Shown here: piece after piece, positions 9,961 to 25,834 of the stretch
How the letters are laid out: each line of letters opens with the position of its first letter
Numbering within the stretch: the stretch's first letter is position 1
Source of the DNA: Nitrospirota bacterium
GTDB lineage: Bacteria; JACPQY01
Assembly: GCA_016190245.1 (NCBI GenBank)
Contig: JACPQY010000078.1
Location: forward strand, 1 to 64,000
Length of the DNA stretch: 64,000 nt
Reading direction: 5' to 3'
Notes under the pieces: generated by a model
What the model saw: the letters and a program-made list of their open reading frames with translations, nothing else
Databases searched by the model: none
What the model was told of the DNA's origin: nothing
Made by a program: the position numbers and the translations under genes

Positions 9961-10383
9961 TCAAATCTCCGTCGAGAGGTCGAGGCGGCCGGCGAGAATC
10001 GTCGCCACCTGGGCCAGATCGGTCAGGTCGGTGAGGGCCTCCCGAAGTTGAGCGGCGGTCACCGTGGCGTATTCGTGGATGATGATGTTCCGGAACTGGA
10101 CGCGTTTCTTCATCTTGTCCGCAAGTGCGGGTTCCAGGATCTCCGCTTCACGGAGGACTTCGAACACCTCCGCGGCCCGGCGGGGTTTGGGAAGAAGCTT
10201 CTCCGCGACAAGATGAGTTCCGAGGTCAATCAGCGCCTTGGTGCCTTTCTGGAGCAGGCGCTCCAGGGCGGAACGCTGAACGAGGTCCGATTCCCAGCTC
10301 GATGGTGGAGTCGATTGGTAGCGACCGAGCGCAGCAAGGGCCTCCCGGAAGACCAGCAGGCGATCAACCACGCCCGGAGCCAT
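9961..10383 (-). CDS. HepT-like (DUF86, HEPN) ribonuclease toxin
   Basis: RX4HXY motif in VQFRNIIIHEYATVTAAQL; overlaps upstream nucleotidyltransferase. Confidence 0.82.
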   Translation of the reverse strand: MAPGVVDRLLVFREALAALGRYQSTPPSSWESDLVQRSALERLLQKGTKALIDLGTHLVAEKLLPKPRRAAEVFEVLREAEILEPALADKMKKRVQFRNIIIHEYATVTAAQLREALTDLTDLAQVATILAGRLDLSTEI

Positions 10384-10762
10384 GCGCCATCGTCCGGAGG
10401 GAACGGAGCGCCGCGTCGAGCAGGATACGCAGCTTCGGCACCCAATCCCAGTACTCCCTCTGCGTTCGCACTTCGAATTCGATCCGGGCCGCGGGGTCGC
10501 GCTCGAAGACGAGCCTCCCCTTCTGAGCGGCATACGTCCACTCCAGCGGCCCGTCGTTCAGGATGAACGGGTCCACCGGGGGATCCACAACCTCCTGGAG
10601 CCGGTCCGCCCACTTCACGGTCGCGTGCAGCAGGTCGGAAGGGGTCTCCCGGAGATAGAGCGCGATGTCGAGATCCGTTTCCGGATTCTCGCTTCCATAG
10701 ACGTAAGCGAAGAGCACGTCGGGCTCGCGGGCCAGCGCATCTGCGATCCGCTCGTCGTACAT
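10364..10762 (-). CDS. MntA-like minimal nucleotidyltransferase antitoxin
   Basis: AYVYGSENPETDLDIALYL (shortened GS...DxD), followed by HepT. Confidence 0.78.
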   Translation of the reverse strand: MYDERIADALAREPDVLFAYVYGSENPETDLDIALYLRETPSDLLHATVKWADRLQEVVDPPVDPFILNDGPLEWTYAAQKGRLVFERDPAARIEFEVRTQREYWDWVPKLRILLDAALRSLRTMAHGSGRG

Positions 10763-10829
10763 CGGGTCATCGTAACACCGTGTACTGGATGGGACAATGC
10801 GGGCGGTCGGGCGGGCGCTGACTGCTTTC

Positions 10830-11239
10830 TCAGCCGCCAGATTCCGGGCGGTGGGCGCGTCGGAGCCGGGAGGCGACGAGGGCGACGATCGCCCGCGCGT
10901 ACTCGAGGGCCTTCACGGCCTCGGACCCGGTGAAGCTCTCGAACGGGACGCTGGGTGGGGGCAGGGCGTCGGGATATCGCGGAGACAGGTAGTACTTGTC
11001 CAGGATCTTCCCCGGGTCCACGCATTCTTGGAAGGCAGGGTCAGCTTCGGCGCACTCCTGCGCGAGCTTCGCCACCGAATGAATCCATACCTGACGACGT
11101 CCCGTGCCATACAGGAAGGCCTTGAGCGCGATCTGAGCGGTTTGCTCGGCCATGAAACACACGTCCGAATGGTACTCCTTCTGGAACAGGGACTCCCCGT
11201 GACCTCCAGACTGTGCTCGGCCTGCGCGAGCCAGCTCAG
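10830..11239 (-). pseudogene. HEPN-domain protein gene with apparent -1 frameshift near 11191-11200
   Basis: N-terminal half (SWLAQAEHSLEVT) and remainder (ESLFQKEYHSDVCFMAEQTAQIALKAFLYG...) lie in different frames, joined at a GGGG run. Confidence 0.65.
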
Positions 11240-11550
11240 GCGGGTTTTTCAAAGACGACCCGGCCGTCCGACAAGACGTTCAGGATGAAAGGGTTTTCCT
11301 CTCTCGCCATCCGCTCGAATTCTTCCGGGGTATAGACGAACACGTCGATCGGTTCGGCCGTGCGCAAGGCGCGCGCGGCCCCCTCGAGCCGCTCGACGAA
11401 CCGCTCATGGGTCCGACGAATGACGACGAAATCCAGGTCGCTCTCGTCGTCGGTTTCCCCCCGTGCCGCCGAGCCGAACAGAATGATTTTTTCAGCGCCC
11501 GTGGCAGCCAGATCCTCGACGGCGTGCCTGATCCGCTCATCTACCCTCAT
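11236..11550 (-). CDS. Minimal nucleotidyltransferase (MNT) domain protein
   Basis: IILFGSAARGETDDESDLDFVVI; ATG at 11548-11550. Confidence 0.85.
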   Translation of the reverse strand: MRVDERIRHAVEDLAATGAEKIILFGSAARGETDDESDLDFVVIRRTHERFVERLEGAARALRTAEPIDVFVYTPEEFERMAREENPFILNVLSDGRVVFEKPA

Positions 11551-13268: not shown

Positions 13269-14045
13269 TTACCGGCGGGGAGTGTCGATCCGGCCGATCA
13301 ACCGAAGTAAACCGTCCAGGATCGTGTAGGGATGCGGCGGGCATCCGGGGACGTACAGATCCACCGGGACGACTGCTGTTGCCCCGTTGAGGACTTCGGG
13401 ATGGCCCTCGTACGGTCCCCCTGAAATCGCGCAGGCGCCGACCGCGATGACGATGCGCGGTTCCGGCACGGCCTCGTAGGTCTTGCGAAGCGCGAGATCC
13501 ATGTTGTGCGTGACGGGTCCCGTGATCAAGAGGCCGTCCGCATGGCGTGGCGACGCCACGAACTGGATCCCGAAGCGGCCCAGATCGAAGACGACGGTGT
13601 TGAGGACGTTCACATCCGCCTCGCAGGCGTTGCACCCGCCCGCGCTCACCTGACGGAGCTTGAGAGATCGGCCCAGGAGTTTTTTCAAGCGCGCATCGAG
13701 AGCCTCCGCGAGACGGAGGGATTCGTCGCCGACGAGAAGGTCCTCTCTCCGGCGGGCGGCCATCCGGTGGTCCCGAGTAGCGGTGACGGCGGCCTCCGGA
13801 CACGCGCGAATGCATTCCGCGCAAAACACGCAGCGACCGAGATCCACCCGGGTTTGAATCTCCTCGCTTCGGGGCGAGATGGCATCCGTCGGGCAGACCT
13901 CGGCGCAGTCCCGGCAGCCGGGCAGGCACCGGGCGCTGTCGACCGCAAGACGGCCCACGAACCGGTCGGGCAGTGCCGGCGCTTCAGCGGGGTAGGCCAC
14001 GGTCCGGCGACCTTGCCCAAGCCTCGTTCGCAGCACCCGAATCAT
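13269..14045 (-). CDS. Ehr/Hyf-like fused ferredoxin + NuoB-like small subunit
   Basis: Two 4Fe-4S motifs CLPGCRDCAEVCP and CVFCAECIRACP followed by NuoB-type GGCNACEADVN, GACAISGG and PGCPPHP; ATG at 14043-14045. Confidence 0.88.
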   Translation of the reverse strand: MIRVLRTRLGQGRRTVAYPAEAPALPDRFVGRLAVDSARCLPGCRDCAEVCPTDAISPRSEEIQTRVDLGRCVFCAECIRACPEAAVTATRDHRMAARRREDLLVGDESLRLAEALDARLKKLLGRSLKLRQVSAGGCNACEADVNVLNTVVFDLGRFGIQFVASPRHADGLLITGPVTHNMDLALRKTYEAVPEPRIVIAVGACAISGGPYEGHPEVLNGATAVVPVDLYVPGCPPHPYTILDGLLRLIGRIDTPRR

Positions 14046-14052
14046 GACGGGT

Positions 14053-15624
14053 TCACAGGTCGTGCCCGCAGTAGGACAGGTTGAAGCTCTTGTTGCAGAG
14101 CGGGAAGTCGGAAATCTGCTGCCCGCGGAGGGCAAGGGCAAGGCCGGTCCAGTTGTGAAACGAGGGGTCCACGATTTTGTATCGGCTGAGGCGGCTTTGG
14201 GTGTCCGTGATCGCGACGTGGCAGATCTCTCCCCGCCAGCCTTCCACGAGGGAAATGGCGCACGAGCTTGGGGCAAGTGCACCGAGGGGGACCGGGGTCG
14301 CCCCGTCCGACAGCCGCTGGAGATGGTTTTCGATGAACTGGGCGGATTGCTCGATCTCCAACCACCGAACATGCGCGCGTGCGAACACGTCGCCTGTGGG
14401 CCACGTGTGGCACGGGGCTTGGGCATCCGCATAGAAGCCGGACGCGAACTCGCGGCGCACGTCCCGCTCGAGTCCGCAGGCTCGCGCGGCCAGGCCCACC
14501 AGGCCGAGCTCAACGGCCTGTTCACGGGACACGACGCCGGTCCCGTTGAACCGGTCCGTCACGAGATGGGACTTCCAAAGGAGCGGACCCACCTGGTGGA
14601 CATCCTCCATGGCGAGCCGGAAGGCGCCCAGCATGGACGACACGCGGTCGGGCTCAAGGTCGAACCGCACGCCGCCGGGCCTGACCAAGCCGCGGCCAAA
14701 GCGATTGCCGCAGAGGGCCGCGGTGAGATTGAGAAAGTCACCGCGGAGGCGGCCGAAGTAGGCGGCGGGCGGGAGAAAACCGATGTCGTTGGCCAAGGCC
14801 CCCAGATCGCCCACATGGTTGGCGATCCGCTCAAGCTCCAGAGCGATGGCGCGGATCATGCGAGCGCGTGGCGAGGGCGTGCAGCCGCAAAGGGCTTCGA
14901 TGGCCTGGGCATAGGCAGTGGCGTGGCCGATCGTCGTGTCGCCGGCGAGGGTTTCCATCAGGAGTGGGGTGCGATTGTTTGGCCCCCCGATCACGGCGCG
15001 CTCCACGCCTCGGTGTTGGAAGCCGAGGGCGATCTCGAGATGAAAGACGGTCTCGCCGTGGCATTGGAATCGGAAGTGGCCCGGTTCGATGATGCCGGCG
15101 TGGACCGGCCCGACGGCGACTTCATGCACTTCCTCGCCCTCCACACTGAAAAAGGAACTTGCCGCTGGGAGGGCCTTGCCCCCGCTCTCATGTCGCGAGA
15201 GGCCCTCGCGACCAGGACATGGCGGCTGGAAGCGAACGGGCTTCAGCCACGGGTGACCGAGCGGCGTGATCCCGAACTGCTCCGCGATCTCGCGCTCGAA
15301 CATGTGGACTTGAGGGCACTCCGGCGTGATCGAGGAGTACTCCCCTCCGACGACGGAGGACGCAACGAGGAGGGTGGGTGGCTTGCCGTCCGCTAGAACG
15401 GCGAACAGGCGCGCCTGGTCGTTCTCGTGAGGGGCCGCGCCCCATGCATGGTCCCGAATGCGATTCGGGACTGCATACGGGGCCGCGAACAGCGCGACAA
15501 CTCGGCCCCCCGAGCGCACGCGCCGAATCAGGAACTCACGGAAGTCCTGGACGGGGAGTCGTGGGATCTCATCCAGCGGGAGGACCCCCCCGTTGGGAGT
15601 GATGGTCGGGATCGTTTGGCTCAC
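14053..15624 (-). CDS. Ehr/HyfG-like NuoCD-type large subunit without Ni-Fe ligand cysteines
   Basis: GPVHAGIIEPGHFRFQCHGETVFHLEIALGFQHRGVE; METLAGDTTIGHATAYAQ in place of the CxxC motif; C-terminus FPLCNKSFNLSYCGHDL instead of DPCxxC. Confidence 0.88.
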   Translation of the reverse strand: MSQTIPTITPNGGVLPLDEIPRLPVQDFREFLIRRVRSGGRVVALFAAPYAVPNRIRDHAWGAAPHENDQARLFAVLADGKPPTLLVASSVVGGEYSSITPECPQVHMFEREIAEQFGITPLGHPWLKPVRFQPPCPGREGLSRHESGGKALPAASSFFSVEGEEVHEVAVGPVHAGIIEPGHFRFQCHGETVFHLEIALGFQHRGVERAVIGGPNNRTPLLMETLAGDTTIGHATAYAQAIEALCGCTPSPRARMIRAIALELERIANHVGDLGALANDIGFLPPAAYFGRLRGDFLNLTAALCGNRFGRGLVRPGGVRFDLEPDRVSSMLGAFRLAMEDVHQVGPLLWKSHLVTDRFNGTGVVSREQAVELGLVGLAARACGLERDVRREFASGFYADAQAPCHTWPTGDVFARAHVRWLEIEQSAQFIENHLQRLSDGATPVPLGALAPSSCAISLVEGWRGEICHVAITDTQSRLSRYKIVDPSFHNWTGLALALRGQQISDFPLCNKSFNLSYCGHDL

Positions 15625-17105
15625 GGCACGCCTTCAACCAGGCGGGCGGCCTGATCGAGCCAGTCTCTCAGCGGCTCGGGCATCCAAAGGCCCAGCGCGA
15701 GGAGGACGGCGAGCGGTCCGTAGACGAGGATGTTGTTCCACGCGCCCTGTTTCTGTTCTCCCGGTGCCGTCGAATTGCCGCCCCAGGCCATCGAAATCGC
15801 GTGGCGAAGCGCCCCCGTGAACACGATGGTAGCCCCCAGGAGGAAGAGTCCGGCCGAGATGTAGAAATGGCGGTCCATCGCGCCTTTCAGGATTTGGAAC
15901 TCGCTCATGAAGAGCGAGAAGGGCGCCATGCCGATGAGGGCCAGGAAGCTGCCGAAGAGCCCTACCCCCCACACGGGCGCGCGGCGGACCGTGCCGGACA
16001 TTTTCTCCATCTCGTGCGTCCCGAAAATCTGGCCGAGGCGGCCGGCACAGAAGAACCCGAGCGTCTTGCACAGGGAATGGTTCAGAACGTGAAACAGGGC
16101 GGCGAACGTCCCGATCCCTCCGACGCCGAGTCCAAGGGAGATGATGCCGAGGTGCTCGACGCTGTGATACGCGAGCAGCCGCTTCAGGTCGCCCTGGAGG
16201 ACGATGAAGACGGCCGCCACGAGGATGGAGAGAACGCCGAATTGCATCAGGATCGTGTGGGCCCATCCGGAAGCGCCTGTCGCGGCCTCGACGAGCGGAA
16301 CGTAGCGCAGGATGCAATACAGGGCTGCATTGAGAAGGAAACCCGAGAACATCGCGGAAACCGGGGCGGGCGCCTGGCTGTGCGCATCGGGCAGCCAACT
16401 GTGCAAGGGTGCCAGCCCGGCCTTCGTGCCGTAGCCCACGAGCAGAAAAATGAAAGCCGCCTTCACGGGAGCAGGGCTGAGCGAGGTCGCGTGCTCGATC
16501 AGGCTCGTCCAGAGCAGGGTGTCCGTTGCGTCCTGAGCGGATCCGCGTGCCGACGCGGCCACGAGGAGGGTGCCCATGAAGGCGAACGCGACGCCCACGG
16601 AGCACATCACGAGATACTTCCACATCGCCTCCAGCGAGGCCGGGGTCCGGTGGAGGCTGATCAGAAAGGCTGTGGTCAGCGTGGTGGCCTCGAGTCCCAC
16701 CCACATGAAGCCGAGGTTGTTGGAGACGAGGACGAGCGTGATCGCCCCGAGCGCCCCCAGCCACAAGGCCCCGAACTGCCGCGCGCGGGCGGGGGGAAAC
16801 TCGCCCCGCTCGGCCTCGACCTGAAAGTAGACGCGGGCAAAGACGGAGCTCAGCAGAAACACCGCCGATAGGACGGCGAGGTGGTACGCCGAGAGGGCGT
16901 CGATTCTCAGCCAGCCGCCGGCGGACGTCACCGCTCCCGCAGAGAGGACGCGAGCCGCCACCGCGGCCGCCACGATCGAGTAGGCCGCCGCGATGCCGAT
17001 CACCCAGCCGAGGATCCGCCCAGGCGAGGCAAGGGCGAGACATACCACCGCCCCGACCAGCGGGATCAGAAGAAGCGAGGGGATCTGCAGGCTGTTCACC
17101 GTCAC
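15621..17105 (-). CDS. Proton-conducting membrane subunit, HyfF/NuoN-like
   Basis: GTKAGLAPLHSWLPDAHSQAPAPVSAMFSG; LKRLLAYHSVEHLGIISLG. Confidence 0.88.
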   Translation of the reverse strand: MTVNSLQIPSLLLIPLVGAVVCLALASPGRILGWVIGIAAAYSIVAAAVAARVLSAGAVTSAGGWLRIDALSAYHLAVLSAVFLLSSVFARVYFQVEAERGEFPPARARQFGALWLGALGAITLVLVSNNLGFMWVGLEATTLTTAFLISLHRTPASLEAMWKYLVMCSVGVAFAFMGTLLVAASARGSAQDATDTLLWTSLIEHATSLSPAPVKAAFIFLLVGYGTKAGLAPLHSWLPDAHSQAPAPVSAMFSGFLLNAALYCILRYVPLVEAATGASGWAHTILMQFGVLSILVAAVFIVLQGDLKRLLAYHSVEHLGIISLGLGVGGIGTFAALFHVLNHSLCKTLGFFCAGRLGQIFGTHEMEKMSGTVRRAPVWGVGLFGSFLALIGMAPFSLFMSEFQILKGAMDRHFYISAGLFLLGATIVFTGALRHAISMAWGGNSTAPGEQKQGAWNNILVYGPLAVLLALGLWMPEPLRDWLDQAARLVEGVP

Positions 17106-17737
17106 CCTTTGAGCGAGTTCATCTGGTCGGCATCGATGTGCTCGAACGCCTGGTTGATCTGCTGGAGCGCGATGCCCATCACGAACACCGCGACAAAGAC
17201 GTCCATGAGGACGCCGAGCTCAATCAGGAACGGAATACCGCCGACCACAGCCACTCCGAACGTGAAGATGCCGTTTTCCAGGACCAGAAAACCGAGCACC
17301 TGCGTCAGGGCCTTCCGTCTCGCGACGACGAGAAACAGCCCTGAGAGGATCGTGAAAAGGGCCGCGGGCAGGACGAGATCCGAGACGGCCTCGCCCGGCA
17401 GGGGCAGTTGTCCCCCCAGCCAGAAGGAGGCCGCAAGCGTGGCCATGCCGATCACCATCGAGCTGGAGTAGCCGACGTAGGGTTGCAGCTCGCGCCGGAC
17501 CTGCGCGTGCTTCACCGCGCGAAAGAGGAGGCGCGGGAAGACGATCCCCTTGAGGATCATGCTTCCGAGGGACAGGGCCGCGACGCGCCACGTGAGACCG
17601 TGTGGGGTGATCAGCAGCGGCATGAGCGAAAGGAGGGCGCCTTGGAGGGCGACGAGACGGATCATCCGGCTGGCGCCGAGGATGAGCAGCCCCACCAGGA
17701 TCAAAGCGATCAGGATGCCGTTGACGAGTACGGGCAT
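17102..17737 (-). CDS. HyfE-like membrane subunit
   Basis: Small multi-TM protein in Hyf order; LGFLVLENGIFTFGVAVVGGIPFLIELGVLMDVFVAVFVMGI typical of HyfE. Confidence 0.85.
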   Translation of the reverse strand: MPVLVNGILIALILVGLLILGASRMIRLVALQGALLSLMPLLITPHGLTWRVAALSLGSMILKGIVFPRLLFRAVKHAQVRRELQPYVGYSSSMVIGMATLAASFWLGGQLPLPGEAVSDLVLPAALFTILSGLFLVVARRKALTQVLGFLVLENGIFTFGVAVVGGIPFLIELGVLMDVFVAVFVMGIALQQINQAFEHIDADQMNSLKG

Positions 17738-17741
17738 CGCC

Positions 17742-18638
17742 TCAGACCAGCGCGAGGACGAGCGCAAGGGAGGACATCACCCCTGCGCCGACCAGCAACT
17801 TCGGAACTCCCAGGAGCCTCAGCCTGGGAAGAGTGGATTCGACCACGCCCGTGGCGACCGCCAGAGCCGCCAGGGCGGCGACGAATGAGACGGCCTCCCA
17901 CCCCTCCCCGCTTTGTGGCAGGAGCGGGCCGACGACGAGGGAACCGAGAATCCAAAGTCGGAGCGCGGAGGCATACTCGATCAGAGCCAGATCGGGCCCC
18001 CCGTGATCGAGCACCATCACCTCGTGAATCATCGTGAGCTCGAGATGGGTGTTGGGGTCGTCCACCGGGATGCGTGCGTTCTCCGCGAGGAAGACGATCC
18101 CGAACGCGGTCGCGACCAGCGCCAGGGCCGGCGCGTGGGCGGTCCACACGTCGGGCGACAGGGTGGAGAATACGCCGTGAAGCGAGAACTGGCCGGTGAT
18201 CCTCACGAGCGCCGCCAGGCCGAGCCACAGCGCGGGCTCCACGAGGGTGGAGAAGTGGACTTCGCGGCTGGCCCCCATTCCCTCGAAGCTTGAACCTGTG
18301 TCCAGCGCGGCGATGACCGTGAAGAAGCGGGAGAGGCCGAGGACGTAGGCGAAGAGGATCACATCCCCCTCGAACGACAGGGGCCCGGGCCGTCCGCCCA
18401 AGGGTGCCACGAGGCAGGCCGCGACGGTCGCGGCGAGGCCGATGAGCGGCCCCGCGCGGAAGATCCACGTCGTGGTGGCACTGTAGACGGCGCCCTTGCC
18501 GAGGAGCTTCCCGAGGTCGTAGTAGGGCTGGAGCAGAGGCGCGCCGCGCCGCCCCGCGAAGACGGCCTTCGTTTTGTTGATCAAACCCGCGAGGAGCGGG
18601 GCGAGGACGAAGGGAAGGACTGCGTGGAAGACGACCAT
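17742..18638 (-). CDS. HyfC/NuoH-like membrane subunit
   Basis: AGLINKTKAVFAGRRGAPLLQPYYDLGKLLGKGAVYS; FLAENARIPVDDPNTHLELTMIHEVMVLDHGGPDLALIEY. Confidence 0.9.
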   Translation of the reverse strand: MVVFHAVLPFVLAPLLAGLINKTKAVFAGRRGAPLLQPYYDLGKLLGKGAVYSATTTWIFRAGPLIGLAATVAACLVAPLGGRPGPLSFEGDVILFAYVLGLSRFFTVIAALDTGSSFEGMGASREVHFSTLVEPALWLGLAALVRITGQFSLHGVFSTLSPDVWTAHAPALALVATAFGIVFLAENARIPVDDPNTHLELTMIHEVMVLDHGGPDLALIEYASALRLWILGSLVVGPLLPQSGEGWEAVSFVAALAALAVATGVVESTLPRLRLLGVPKLLVGAGVMSSLALVLALV

Positions 18639-18645
18639 TTCGTGC

Positions 18646-20643
18646 CTAGCGCAGTTTGAGGATGAGAAGCCCGAGGAGCGTCACCGACACGTAGAGAACG
18701 TAGAGCTGCAGCCGGCCGTGCTGAAAGCCTTTCAAGCGGCTGAAGAGTGCCAGGGCGCCTTGAAAGAGCGGGGCGTAGGCCTCTTCGGTGCAGACATCGG
18801 GCGTGTGACTCGAAAACGCGGCGGTGGGTCGGGGGAAGAGGCCCTCCGGACGGCCACCGTGCGCCCGGGTCCGGAGGAAACCCCCGAAAAAGTGCGTCAA
18901 GGGTTGAGCGAACGAGGAAGCGGTGTATTGCATCCGCGGGGTGGGCTTGGCGTAGCCGCAATCCCACGTGACGGCGCCGCGCACGGGTCGTCCCCTGAGG
19001 ACGAGGAATCGCACACCGGCGAGCAGGAGCAGCAGCCCAAGTAGGATGAAGGAAGCCACGGAGATGGAGCGCGCAATGCCCTCCAAGCCGGACACTGCCG
19101 AGGAGGGCTGAGCGAAAGTAGAGGTGATCTGCTCCACCACCGGGGCCACAAGCCCGACCGCGACCGGCGCGGCGAGCCCGATGGCGAGGCACGCCCCCGA
19201 TAGGATGAACATCGGAGCCTGCATCCACGTCCCCGCTTCTTTCGGAGGCTCGGCGGCTGCAGAACGCGGGGAGCCGAGAAAGACGACGCCGAACGCCTTG
19301 GCGAAGCATGCGCAGGCGAGGCCGCCGATGATCCCGAGACTCGCGAGCACCACGGCCGAGGCGACCGGCCAAGGGAGGCCGTCCACCATGCCGCGCAAGG
19401 CGCCGTAGTAGATCAACGCTTCGCTCACGAAACCGTTGAGCGGTGGCAGGCCGCAGATCGCGATGCTTCCCACGAGAAACGAGAAACCTGTCCGCGGCAT
19501 CGGCTTGAGAAGCCCTCCCAGACGATCGATGTCGCGGGTGGCGGTGGATTGGACCGCGGCGCCCGCCGCGAGGAAGAGGAGCCCTTTGAAGATCGCGTGG
19601 TTGAGAATGTGCAGGAGCCCGCCCGCGAAGCCGGCGGCGGCCAGGAGCGGCCGCTCCGTCGCGATCCCCATCAGGCCCAGCCCCAATCCGAGCGCGATGA
19701 TGCCGATGTTCTCGATGCTGTGGTAGGCGAGGAGCCTTTTCAGATCGTGCTGCGCCAGGGCAAATAGAACCCCGAGCACGCCGGACGTGGCGCCGAGCGC
19801 GAGGAGCGCCCAGGCCCAGGACGGATCGGGAGGACCGAGGAAAAGCATGACGCGGAGCAACCCGTACAGTCCCGTCTTGATCATCACGCCGGACATCAGC
19901 GCGGAGACGTGACTCGGCGCGGCCGGATGCGCTTCCGGGAGCCACACATGCAGGGGCATGAACCCCGCCTTCGCTCCGAACCCGACCAGGGCCAGCACGA
20001 AGAGTGCGGAAGGATGTGCCCATCGCCCGGCGAGGCCGATCCAGGCGTCGAAATCGGTGGAGCCGGATTCCCTCCCCATGAGAAGGAAGAGGACGAGGAC
20101 GAACGCCGCCCCGGCCTGGCTGGCTACGAGGTAGATCCATCCCGCGCGACGCACGGATTCCTTCTCGCTCTCCGACGTGACCAGGAAGAAGGAGGTGAGC
20201 GCCATGACCTCCCACGCCAGCAGGAAGAGCAGTGCATTTTGCGCCACGACCACGAGGGCCATGCTCAGGACCAACGCGCTGAAAAGGAATTCGCGTGCGC
20301 CGGTTCTCCCGTGGGTGTGTTCCCGCCGGCTGTAGTCGAGACTGTAGAGGGCGGAGACCGCGCTCAAACCCAGGATCCCGAGCAGGAACCACGCCGAGAG
20401 GGCGTCCAGTCCGATCGATAACCGTCCGAACGGCATGGCCCAGTCCGTCTCGGCGGAGATCGGCCCCCCCCCGAGAAGAATCGCGATGGCCGGCAGGATG
20501 CCGAGGAGGCTCCCAGCCACGACGCTCGCCGCTCCAAGGCGCCGTGCGGCGCCGGGCGTGCGGACGAGCAGGCAAGCCGCGCCGCCCGAAAGGATCACGA
20601 ACATCCCCGCGAGGAGGAGAAAGAGAAGGAGGATTTCCGGCAT
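18646..20643 (-). CDS. HyfB/NuoL-like proton-conducting membrane subunit
   Basis: GFGAKAGFMPLHVWLPEAHPAAPSHVSALMSGVMIKTGLYGLLR; LKRLLAYHSIENIGIIALGLGLG. Confidence 0.9.
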   Translation of the reverse strand: MPEILLLFLLLAGMFVILSGGAACLLVRTPGAARRLGAASVVAGSLLGILPAIAILLGGGPISAETDWAMPFGRLSIGLDALSAWFLLGILGLSAVSALYSLDYSRREHTHGRTGAREFLFSALVLSMALVVVAQNALLFLLAWEVMALTSFFLVTSESEKESVRRAGWIYLVASQAGAAFVLVLFLLMGRESGSTDFDAWIGLAGRWAHPSALFVLALVGFGAKAGFMPLHVWLPEAHPAAPSHVSALMSGVMIKTGLYGLLRVMLFLGPPDPSWAWALLALGATSGVLGVLFALAQHDLKRLLAYHSIENIGIIALGLGLGLMGIATERPLLAAAGFAGGLLHILNHAIFKGLLFLAAGAAVQSTATRDIDRLGGLLKPMPRTGFSFLVGSIAICGLPPLNGFVSEALIYYGALRGMVDGLPWPVASAVVLASLGIIGGLACACFAKAFGVVFLGSPRSAAAEPPKEAGTWMQAPMFILSGACLAIGLAAPVAVGLVAPVVEQITSTFAQPSSAVSGLEGIARSISVASFILLGLLLLLAGVRFLVLRGRPVRGAVTWDCGYAKPTPRMQYTASSFAQPLTHFFGGFLRTRAHGGRPEGLFPRPTAAFSSHTPDVCTEEAYAPLFQGALALFSRLKGFQHGRLQLYVLYVSVTLLGLLILKLR

Positions 20644-20677: not shown

Positions 20678-21025
20678 TCAGACGCGCCCGAGATCCCTGA
20701 GGAGGCTCTCGCTCTCGCGGAGCTTCTTGCGCAGGATCTCGGCGATCGGCCGCAGGACTCTGAAGATGTCCCGATCCTTGATGGCGTAGAAGACGTTGGC
20801 CTTGGCCTGGCGCGAGGTCAGGATGCCGGCCTGGCGGAGCACCGCCAGGTGCTTGGACAGGCCGGATTGCTCCACGCCCAGGACCTCGACCATCCGGCCG
20901 ACGGAGGCCTCCCTCTGTTTCAGATGCTCGATGACCGCCAAGCGGACGGGATGCGCCAGCGCCCCGAGGAAATTGGCCTTGATCTTGAACACGAGGTTGG
21001 CTCCGAGGTGTCTCCTCTTGGTCAT
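20678..21025 (-). CDS. ArsR-family winged-helix regulator (cysteine-free)
   Basis: ALAHPVRLAVIEHLKQREASVGRMVEVLGVEQSGLSKHLAVLRQAGILTSRQAKANVFYAI; 34 bp upstream of hyfB-like gene. Confidence 0.88.
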   Translation of the reverse strand: MTKRRHLGANLVFKIKANFLGALAHPVRLAVIEHLKQREASVGRMVEVLGVEQSGLSKHLAVLRQAGILTSRQAKANVFYAIKDRDIFRVLRPIAEILRKKLRESESLLRDLGRV

Positions 21026-23643: not shown

Positions 23644-24795
23644 CTAGAACCAGCGGCGGAGCCAGTTCTTTTCGAAAAGGACCTTCGAAACGTGCCAGCG
23701 CCAACTCGGGGGACGCATTCTCACATCGGGGGCCGGTTCGGCGTAGAAATTCCCCGCCCCGTAGCCCGCTTTCCCATCGCCTGTTTCGATGAAGCACTCG
23801 CCGTGACCGTCGAATGAGGCCGATCGGCCCTTGCCCGTGATCGCGAGGGCGATGTTGCAGGCGACCGCTTCGGCCTGGGTGTGCGCAAAGACTCCGGCCT
23901 TGGGGAGAGGCTTTCCCATCTTGAGCGGGATGCCGGTCACGTCGCCGATGGCGAAAACGCGGTCGAAGCGTGTGGCCATGCTGTTCCGGTCCACGTCCAC
24001 GTACTTGCCCTCGGCGGCAAGTCCCGCTTCGCGGATCACGCGCGGCGCCCGGTGGGGCGGGACGTAGGCGAGAAGATCGAACGGGACCTCGGCGCCGTTC
24101 TTGAACCTGAGTTTTCGGGATGCCGTATCGACTTCGCTCATTTGGTGCTCCGGGTGGTAGGTGATCCCCTTGGCCTCGACCATCTGTCGCACCGCTCTTG
24201 AGATCTCGGGACCGGCCACGCCCATCGGTGCCGGTTCGGCTGCGTAGAGGTCGAGTTGAGTGCGCTCGCGGATCCGGCGCTTCCGGCAGTACGCCTCGAT
24301 CAGCATCGCCGCCTCGTAGGGGGCGGCCGGGCATTTGTACGGTTGGCCGGCCGTGAGGATCACCAGCCGCCCGCCGGTGAAGGAGGCGAGGGCGTCGCGG
24401 AGCGTTGTTGCGCCCGGCAGGGTGTAGAAATTGTGGCCCGCCGCGGTCAGGCCCGGCACAAGCTCCGGCGCGAGCTCGGCGCCGAGGGCCACGATGAGAA
24501 AGTCGCCCGACAGGAGCCGACCGCCCACCGTGGCTGTCCGGCGGGCAGGATCGAGGCTCTCGATCTCGCCCACGACGACTTCGATTCCCTTCCTTCCGAG
24601 GCGGGACAGCGGTCGAGAGATCTTCTCCGGAGTCCGAGCACCCGTCATGAGCCAGAGGAGCGAGGGCGCGAACAGGTAGGAAGATTCGCGGTCCACCACC
24701 ACGACGCGGTTTTCCCTCGGGAGTCGTTTCCGAACTTCGTTCGCGGCCACCAGTCCGCCGACGCCGGCACCGAGGATGAGGACGGTCTGCCCCAC
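23644..24795 (-). CDS. FAD-dependent oxidoreductase, sulfide:quinone oxidoreductase-like
   Basis: VLILGAGVGGLVAANEVRKRL...VFAIGDVTGIPLKMGKPLPKAGVFAHTQAEAVACNIA; GTG start at 24793-24795. Confidence 0.82.
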   Translation of the reverse strand: MGQTVLILGAGVGGLVAANEVRKRLPRENRVVVVDRESSYLFAPSLLWLMTGARTPEKISRPLSRLGRKGIEVVVGEIESLDPARRTATVGGRLLSGDFLIVALGAELAPELVPGLTAAGHNFYTLPGATTLRDALASFTGGRLVILTAGQPYKCPAAPYEAAMLIEAYCRKRRIRERTQLDLYAAEPAPMGVAGPEISRAVRQMVEAKGITYHPEHQMSEVDTASRKLRFKNGAEVPFDLLAYVPPHRAPRVIREAGLAAEGKYVDVDRNSMATRFDRVFAIGDVTGIPLKMGKPLPKAGVFAHTQAEAVACNIALAITGKGRSASFDGHGECFIETGDGKAGYGAGNFYAEPAPDVRMRPPSWRWHVSKVLFEKNWLRRWF

Positions 24796-24806
24796 GCGCC
24801 GGCCCC

Positions 24807-25157
24807 TCAAAACGTGAAGACCTTGTCGGCATCGAGCGACCACGTGGTCCACTCGTCGAGCGAGCTGCGTCGCGCGCCCTCGACCAGTTCGCTTTCCGAG
24901 ATGCCGCGCGCATCCATGCAGGTGCCGCAGACGCCGATCGATCCGCCGCGCCGCGCGACTGAAGAGAGCATGCTCTGGATATTGTAGTAGCCCTGAGGAA
25001 CCTTTTGCCCGGCCTTGGCGCACGCGGCGGCATCGCCGACAAGAAAGACCTTCACTTCCACCCCTTCGCGTTTCGCCAAGGATCCGGCGAGGCGGAGGCC
25101 GTTGTAGGATCGCTCGGTGCCGTAGGGGGCGTCGTTCAGGGTCATGAGAACCTTCAA
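24807..25157 (-). CDS. DsrE/DsrF-like family protein
   Basis: LKVLMTLNDAPYGTERSYNGLRLA...VFLVGDAAACAK...GVCGTCMDARG; probable TTG start overlapping upstream stop. Confidence 0.85.
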   Translation of the reverse strand: MKVLMTLNDAPYGTERSYNGLRLAGSLAKREGVEVKVFLVGDAAACAKAGQKVPQGYYNIQSMLSSVARRGGSIGVCGTCMDARGISESELVEGARRSSLDEWTTWSLDADKVFTF

Positions 25158-25834
25158 GTGCCCCCTCCTTCCAGCCCGACCGCGACCGGGAGCCCCGCCG
25201 CGCGCCACTCGGGGAACCCGTCTTCGAGGCGCCGGGCCCTGAATCCGCGTTTGCGGAGGGTTTCAACCGCGCGGAGGGCGAGGAGGCAGTAGGGGCCGCG
25301 ACAGTACGCGACGATTTCCTTTCTGCGCGGAAGTCCTGCCAGACGCCGCGCCAGTTCGGAGAGGGGGATGGAGACCGCTCCACGGATGTGCCCTGCAGCA
25401 AACTCGTCCACCGGCCGCACGTCGAGCACAACGACCTCGCCGAGGCGGACGCGGCGGAGCAGGTCGCGTTGCGTGACCGGTTCGAGTGAATCGCGCTCGT
25501 GGAGGTAGGATTGCACGAGGCGGTCCACGTCGGCGATCCTCCTTTGGGCAAGGGCACGAATCGCTCGGGAAAGCTCGTAGATATCGGCGCCGGCCAGACG
25601 GTAGCGGACGTGGAGGCCGTCCCGTCGCGTTTCCACGAGCCGCGCGTCGTGCAGAGCCCGGAGGTGGTGGGAGGTATTGGCGACGGACATGCCCGATTCG
25701 GCCGCCAGGGCCTCCACCGGCCGCTCCCCCTGGGCCAGGAGGTCGATCAATTCGAGGCGGGGCGGGCTGGAGAGGGCCTTGCCGATCCGGGCGCAATGCT
25801 CGTGGACACGTTGGGTCAGGCTGCGATTCGTCAT
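25154..25834 (-). CDS. ArsR-family HTH regulator fused to a rhodanese domain
   Basis: LSSPPRLELIDLLAQGERPVEALAAESGMSVANTSHHLRALHDARLV + rhodanese LDVRPVDEFAAGHIRGAVSIP...VAYCRGPYCLLAL. Confidence 0.92.
   Translation of the reverse strand: MTNRSLTQRVHEHCARIGKALSSPPRLELIDLLAQGERPVEALAAESGMSVANTSHHLRALHDARLVETRRDGLHVRYRLAGADIYELSRAIRALAQRRIADVDRLVQSYLHERDSLEPVTQRDLLRRVRLGEVVVLDVRPVDEFAAGHIRGAVSIPLSELARRLAGLPRRKEIVAYCRGPYCLLALRAVETLRKRGFRARRLEDGFPEWRAAGLPVAVGLEGGGT

Follow-up and report, generated by a model that had tools for sequence, protein, structure and literature searches.

The ehr operon of a Nitrospirota bacterium and the former Ni-Fe site of its large subunit

Gene content, distribution and neighborhood of the operon

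The window, that is, the whole 64,000-nucleotide stretch of DNA analyzed here, carries six co-directional minus-strand genes between positions 20643 and 13269, encoding EhrA, EhrB, EhrC, EhrD, EhrL, and EhrS in this order, with intergenic gaps of at most ~10 nt or short overlaps. These genes and the regulator gene preceding them are as follows.

20678..21025, minus strand: ArsR/SmtB-family regulator, 115 aa, 34 nt upstream of ehrA
18646..20643, minus strand: ehrA, HyfB-like antiporter-type membrane subunit, 665 aa (NCBIfam HyfB, 617 bits)
17742..18638, minus strand: ehrB, HyfC/NuoH-like membrane anchor, 298 aa (NADHdh match)
17102..~17737, minus strand: ehrC, HyfE-like membrane subunit, ~211 aa (open reading frame opening at 17767, ATG at 17737)
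15621..17105, minus strand: ehrD, HyfF-like antiporter-type membrane subunit, 494 aa (HyfF, 403 bits)
14053..15624, minus strand: ehrL, fused NuoC/NuoD-like large subunit without Ni-Fe ligands, 523 aa
13269..14045, minus strand: ehrS, 2x[4Fe-4S] ferredoxin fused to a NuoB-like small subunit, 258 aa (ATG at ~14045)

Gene calls and family matches confirmed the sequence-only reading of this locus, which had described six co-directional genes for these types of subunit, and the set by which an Ehr operon is recognized (membrane subunits of the HyfB, HyfC, HyfE, and HyfF types plus a large and a small subunit) was present in full. EhrL combined the 30-kDa and 49-kDa domains of complex I, the solved chains closest to EhrB were HycD, MbhM, and MbsM, and EhrC gave a weak match to the hydrogenase 4 membrane subunit (HyfE) profile, at 74.8 bits and below the cutoff of 136. 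The equivalents of the NuoM channel residues E144, K234, K265, and E407 were all present in EhrA, and three of the four were kept in EhrD, which has Asn at the K265 position, as does HyfF. No HycB/HyfA-like linker subunit was found in the operon of the window.

Ehr complexes, which stand beside respiratory complex I and hydrogenases, are very widespread; a protein scan of genome contigs returned at least 578 matching stretches. Since the analysis drew on the 80 best-matching loci (54 to 60% identity) out of more than 578, the sample leans toward the subtype of the window; these 80 came from Planctomycetota, Verrucomicrobiota, Myxococcota, Omnitrophota, Acidobacteriota, Elusimicrobiota, Zixibacteria, and other lineages. 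The order A-(A)-B-C-D-L-S recurred in nearly all loci on sufficiently long contigs, the exceptions being two EhrA genes in some loci and an EhrA gene at the opposite end in one (L103). Because almost every relative with sufficient flanking sequence, across more than 10 phyla, has the same gene order, the operon is not a chance arrangement.

The ArsR gene, which had been left out of the sequence-only reading, belongs with the operon; both genomes examined from the phylum of the window have an Ehr operon together with an ArsR gene, and the two ArsR proteins were 85% identical (the counterpart lying in locus L101). The best solved match of this protein was Rv0081 of Mycobacterium tuberculosis (6jmi, E value of 2.4e-15), followed by NolR (4.4e-12). 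Rv0081 is the regulator of Rv0082-Rv0087 (PMC6901956), an operon that has been called Ehr and judged to be nonhydrogenase because maturation genes are missing (PMC6728331). The operon of the window is probably controlled by an Rv0081-like ArsR regulator. In the relatives, ehrA was directly preceded by a gene with HTH_17 and PTS EIIA_2 domains in 51 of the 59 loci with enough upstream DNA, two histidines being invariant across 35 aligned copies, and the position of this gene is taken by the ArsR gene in the window and its phylum-mate. This HTH-EIIA gene was the sole recurring neighbor, and no conserved metabolic neighbors of ehr were found in the relatives. Within the window, a cluster of sulfide:quinone reductase-like, DsrE, and rhodanese genes lies 3 to 5 kb from the operon.

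The former Ni-Fe site and the pocket of EhrL

The residues discussed below map to the following positions.

15076..15090, minus strand: EhrL beta1-beta2 loop, residues 179-183 (I-E-P-G-H), E180 corresponding to HycE E193 and MbhL E21
14935..14946, minus strand: EhrL residues 227-230 (A-G-D-T), replacing the N-terminal CxxC in the alignment
14056..14097, minus strand: EhrL residues 510-523 (CNKSFNLSYCGHDL), replacing DPCxxC in the alignment
18021..18062, minus strand: Ehr-specific EhrB TM5-6 loop DDPNTHLELTMIHE, with a 3-residue insertion relative to HycD, HyfC, and NuoH

An alignment of 89 EhrL sequences (the window and 88 relatives from more than 10 phyla) with HycE, HyfG, and NuoCD revealed that the HycE ligands C241, C244, C531, and C534 correspond to A227, T230, S517, and G520, leaving the protein of the window with none of the four. 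Both motifs to which the sequence-only reading had drawn attention, METLAGDTTIGHATAYAQ and FPLCNKSFNLSYCGHDL, were found in EhrL, and the alignment contained no displaced ligands: a CxxC ligand pair was missing from all 89 sequences, three of which had a lone Cys at position 227, ruling out canonical Ni-Fe binding. C510 and C519 were considered as a catalytic pair and rejected, C519 being Ala or Ser in five and C510 being Ile in two of the 89 sequences. The C terminus of EhrL aligned at HycE R537, so that the C-terminal extension of HycE is missing. In a single-chain AlphaFold2 model, the overall fold was clear and nearest to that of HycE (7z0s_E, TM score of 0.82), followed by Escherichia coli NuoCD (0.73 to 0.80), with the site loops 170-182 and 509-523 below a pLDDT of 50. 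A family search of the host genome (84.8% complete), in which the positive controls worked, recovered neither the maturation protein HypD nor a match to PF00374, the canonical Ni-Fe large subunit. Considering the four replaced ligands, the missing extension, and the lack of HypD and PF00374 matches, a hydrogenase function is not credible, and the complex is instead classified as Ehr, in agreement with the earlier view that it should not be a hydrogenase.

As judged from residue conservation, the former active site is remodeled, not decayed. Proton transfer in HycE has been assigned to E193, H284, R395, E437, and R478 (PMC9474812), and these assignments land on identical HycE numbers in our alignment, corresponding to EhrL E180, H270, R381, E423, and R464 (the counterpart of the canopy Arg R478), each kept in 88 or 89 of the 89 sequences; a function has also been assigned to MbhL E21, the counterpart of E180 (PMC11228991). 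Other positions were exchanged. HycE D192 is replaced by Ile in all 89 sequences, and the canopy residue D529, called strictly conserved across hydrogenases and complex I (PMC9474812), by Asn in 86 and by Ser in three; the canopy Asp is retained in the Ehr of Variovorax cluster 1 and Allomeiothermus. The quinone-head ligands of complex I, Nqo4 H38 and Y87 (PMC7684303), correspond to I179 and G228, respectively, and both are missing in essentially all Ehr. Moreover, seven residues were gained and are invariant in all 89 sequences (D229, W463, F507, N511, K512, S517, and G520). Every EhrB inspected had the loop DDPNTHLELTMIHE, with minor variations, whereas none of the hydrogenase or Nuo homologues inspected had it; by homology, this loop would line the same chamber as the EhrL pocket. 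The exchanges and gains in EhrL, together with this loop, suggest that three sides of the chamber were remodeled together.

Phylogenetic placement and comparison with known systems

In a large-subunit tree built after removal of the ligand columns, the EhrL of the window and the other Ni-Fe-less HycE-like subunits formed one Ehr clade (100/100), and this clade was sister to E. coli HycE/HyfG (96/84), with Ech/Mbh-like hydrogenases standing between Ehr and NuoD. The membrane subunits of Ehr were likewise Hyc/Hyf-like. Taken together, these placements suggest that Ehr lost the Ni-Fe site separately. The proposal that such complexes are evolutionary intermediates between group 4 hydrogenases and complex I is therefore disfavored by the tree, although an approximately unbiased (AU) test did not reject a topology holding Ehr and NuoD together (P = 0.31). 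The position of Ehr roughly among the group 4 hydrogenases, on the other hand, does not make it a hydrogenase, because the Ni-Fe ligands are missing. A Nuo assignment of locus L069 in the tree table was rejected; the label came from SLSY instead of NLSY, and L069 is an Ehr.

The ehrABCDLS gene set, the loss of both CxxC motifs, and the single Ehr clade uphold the Ehr-type assignment, meaning that the complex of the window is of an already known kind and is a new member in a phylum represented by two of the genomes examined. Known examples include ehrABCDLS of Methylacidiphilum (PMC6688271), GSU0739-0745 of Geobacter sulfurreducens (PMC7894505), and the Ehr of comammox Nitrospira (PMC10284858) and Sulfobacillus (PMC4378227); according to their published descriptions, these resemble the complex of the window in gene content, in the loss of both CxxC motifs, and in showing no link to hydrogenase activity. 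The Geobacter cluster comprises seven genes and has a second EhrA (EhrA-1), whereas the window has a single EhrA. The M. tuberculosis locus Rv0081-Rv0087 resembles the window in having an ArsR regulator beside the operon and no hyp genes; in Rhodococcus sp. ZPP, a relative of that locus, a NuoB-only EhrS comes first, whereas the ferredoxin-fused EhrS of the window comes last.

E. coli hydrogenase-3 and -4 (Hyc/Hyf, group 4a), the sister clade, share the subunit types and the proton-path residues with Ehr, which differs in lacking the Ni-Fe ligands, the HycB/HyfA linker, and the C-terminal extension, in having Asn in place of the canopy Asp529, and in its remodeled EhrB loop. The sulfane reductase MBS of Pyrococcus is, like Ehr, derived from group 4 and devoid of both the Ni-Fe site and the quinone His/Tyr; its catalysis relies on a proximal cluster that has three Cys ligands and sits in a shortened loop, and the MbhL E21 equivalent is missing (PMC7684303), whereas Ehr has a four-Cys proximal cluster, the proton-donor Glu, and Hyf-like rather than Mrp-like membrane subunits. 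Complex I (Nuo) shares a homologous core and channel residues with Ehr, which lacks the quinone-head His/Tyr and has no NADH module in its operon, a separate nuo cluster being present in the host. No paper establishing the reaction of Ehr was found in the literature searched, and within that literature the earlier statement that its redox substrate is not established holds.

Electron wiring and possible function

The EhrS of the window retains 12 of 12 cluster cysteines, eight in the ferredoxin domain and four proximal ones in hydrogenase (HycG-like) CxxC spacing. The four proximal ligands were kept in ~95% of the EhrS examined, window included, and all 12 cysteines in most relatives and in most of the clade of the window. 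Plasmid-borne Ehr of Variovorax, Rhodococcus, Rhizobium johnstonii 3841, Sinorhizobium fredii, Azospirillum, Cupriavidus metallidurans CH34, and methanotrophs carry the EhrL and EhrB signatures, and in most of them, including those of Rhodococcus, Rhizobium, and Cupriavidus, EhrS is NuoB-only (169 to 212 aa) and lacks the ferredoxin domain.

Five relatives were without the proximal [4Fe-4S] ligands, the four Cys positions being occupied by N, E, E, and W in L022; A, S, E, and H in L105; a gap, A, G, and D in L106; D, C, D, and D in L107 (three of four lost); and T, D, E, and S in Allomeiothermus silvanus. Mapped onto a quickly built EhrL tree that contains some long branches, these losses amounted to five parsimony changes, and the proximal ligands thus appear to have been lost independently in five relatives while the EhrL and EhrB signatures stayed. 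In L022, the reading frame and the ferredoxin domain of EhrS are intact, the protein is 57% identical to the EhrS of the window outside the ligand loss, and the EhrL of this locus preserves all 90 family-invariant positions, including all 41 in the pocket, suggesting a pocket that is fully constrained where no electron should arrive from EhrS. Such constraint calls a purely redox role into question and suggests that not every complex requires electrons at the conserved pocket. A literature search on cluster-less Ehr returned nothing relevant.

For the complex of the window, the explanation that we favor, with about even confidence, is an oxidoreductase that would be fed by ferredoxin, translocate ions, and reduce an acceptor in its metal-free pocket with proton uptake. 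It builds on features observed directly, namely, the gene set, the loss of the Ni-Fe ligands, the intact cluster ligands, and the conserved proton-path and channel residues. Reduced ferredoxin, most likely the donor, would feed electrons into the two-cluster ferredoxin domain of EhrS, from which they would pass through the proximal [4Fe-4S] cluster to the metal-free polar pocket of EhrL; there, an oxidized small molecule would be reduced with proton uptake via E180 and the R464/H270/E423/R381 path, and the EhrB loop would relay the change to EhrD and EhrA, the antiporter-like subunits that would move H+ or Na+. The reverse direction is also possible, with an ion gradient driving the reduction of ferredoxin. 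The host encodes subunits of a 2-oxoacid:ferredoxin oxidoreductase next to its separate nuo cluster, and reduced ferredoxin is therefore probably available. As a rough division, a small molecule other than quinone seems the leading candidate for the acceptor, although short of an even chance, a quinone-type acceptor is slightly less probable, and the lack of any terminal reduction is the least probable of the three.

As a special case of this explanation, Ehr might act as a small complex I, a reduced ferredoxin:quinone oxidoreductase whose EhrL pocket would handle quinone, by reduction or oxidation, as in NDH or Fpo. The fold and subunits common to complex I, the location of the pocket at the quinone-head site, and the polar proton path kept in EhrL are consistent with this, but the Nqo4 H38/Y87 equivalents are gone, the EhrB chamber loop is unlike that of NuoH, and MenG/UbiE was not enriched in Ehr genomes (31 of 59, versus 24 of 51 without Ehr; P = 0.70), making this case rather unlikely. 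Neither genome from the phylum of the window passed the MenG/UbiE cutoff or had MqnA/D; MenG/UbiE is an imperfect marker and weak evidence, having missed genomes in which quinones are probably present. A comparably unlikely rival, and the most interesting one in view of the cluster-less relatives, is a nonredox or redox-optional ion transporter, in which acid-base or ligand chemistry in EhrL would drive or gate ions and the FeS wire would be dispensable. The five losses of the proximal ligands alongside retained EhrL and EhrB signatures argue for it, whereas the four ligands kept in ~95% of EhrS and the 12 cysteines retained by most of the clade of the window argue against it.

The remaining rivals are much less probable. 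A formate dehydrogenase-Ehr complex oxidizing formate has been proposed for Margulisbacteria (PMC6349859), the Geobacter Ehr is more abundant on formate (PMC7894505), and the host encodes a formate dehydrogenase alpha subunit (G000:C83, 766 bits). However, this gene is on a contig other than that of ehr, the set of formate dehydrogenase and NuoE/F-like genes by which such a complex is recognized does not accompany ehr, formate dehydrogenase genes are not among the conserved neighbors, the HycB-like linker is missing, and Fdh-alpha above the curated cutoff was equally frequent in genomes with Ehr (14 of 59) and without it (12 of 51; P = 1.0), so that formate oxidation seems improbable. In both co-occurrence comparisons, the controls are only roughly matched by taxonomy, and the incompleteness of many genomes means that absence calls understate presence; neither comparison supports an obligate formate dehydrogenase or quinone partner. 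A sulfur or polysulfide reductase resembling archaeal MBS seems marginally more improbable still: MBS also lacks the Nqo4 H38/Y87 equivalents (PMC7684303) and sulfur genes occur nearby in the window, but EhrS has four ligands in hydrogenase CxxC spacing, EhrL has the MbhL E21-equivalent Glu, and sulfur genes are not conserved ehr neighbors. Finally, a hydrogenase whose Ni-Fe site is hidden or displaced would fit HycE/HyfG being the closest relatives by fold and sequence, yet the replacement of all four ligands with no displaced CxxC, the lack of HypD, PF00374, and a HycE-type C-terminal extension, and the missing HypD in 18 of 50 other Ehr genomes render it negligible.

Beyond the favored ferredoxin-fed oxidoreductase, a bolder proposal, which we consider unlikely but worth stating, is that Ehr may be a functional class of its own within the complex I superfamily. 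Its conserved EhrL/EhrB pocket would then host a proton-linked reaction other than H2, quinone, or polysulfide reduction, for which the FeS wire would not be strictly required; wired members such as that of the window would be redox coupled, while at least five lineages would run after loss of the proximal cluster. The residue map, the finding that neither formate dehydrogenase nor the quinone marker is enriched, and the cluster-less relatives open the function of Ehr to specific tests by mutation and comparison, some of which are feasible in culturable isolates. Among the five cluster-less Ehr, that of Allomeiothermus silvanus comes from an isolate with a complete plasmid, and the other four include metagenome-assembled genomes.

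EhrS homologues lacking proximal-cluster ligands

Three or all four of the cysteines that ligate the proximal [4Fe-4S] cluster were missing from the small subunit, EhrS, at the related loci L022, L105, L106, L107 and L158, and these residues were often replaced by acidic ones, with the large subunit (EhrL) and membrane anchor (EhrB) still conserved alongside.

EhrS homologues with proximal [4Fe-4S] cysteine ligands lost
L022, 11522-12316
L105, 634-1488
L106, 7246-7992
L107, 3266-3799
L158, 13266-14138

Plasmid pMESIL01 of Allomeiothermus silvanus carries two copies of a cluster-less Ehr operon plus ArsR gene (L158 and L166), identical in EhrS. Plasmid 3 of Variovorax sp. PBL-E5 (L156) also holds two Ehr operons, distinct and ∼3.4 kb apart, one with a ferredoxin-fused and the other with a NuoB-only EhrS. 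Moreover, Mycobacterium branderi pJCM12687 and Caballeronia sp. SBC1 encode a separate Hyf-like family, likewise devoid of the Ni-Fe site and without the Ehr signatures NKSF and THLELTM; the M. branderi small subunit retains 0/4 proximal-cluster cysteines.

A candidate regulator upstream of ehrA

The sequence reached far enough upstream at 59 related loci, and 51 of these had a helix-turn-helix plus PTS EIIA_2 gene immediately 5' of ehrA. A limited literature search found nothing on such a regulator of Ehr operons, and the protein is apparently a so far unreported one.

Examples of the helix-turn-helix plus PTS EIIA_2 gene
L026, 4186-4893
L102, 3624-4340

Other genes of the window and host genome

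Apart from the Ehr operon, the window contains a small sulfur cluster and paired genes resembling, by eye, MntA-HepT toxin-antitoxin modules. One host contig (G000:C47) bears an unusually dense grouping of molybdenum enzymes.

Window 23644-25834, minus strand: consecutive genes for an ArsR-rhodanese fusion, a DsrE-like protein and a protein resembling type III sulfide:quinone reductase
Window 9961-11540, minus strand: two nucleotidyltransferase/HEPN-type gene pairs, side by side
G000:C47 (L130, 3167-14530), minus strand: three (four by family search) neighbouring type II DMSO-reductase-family catalytic subunits
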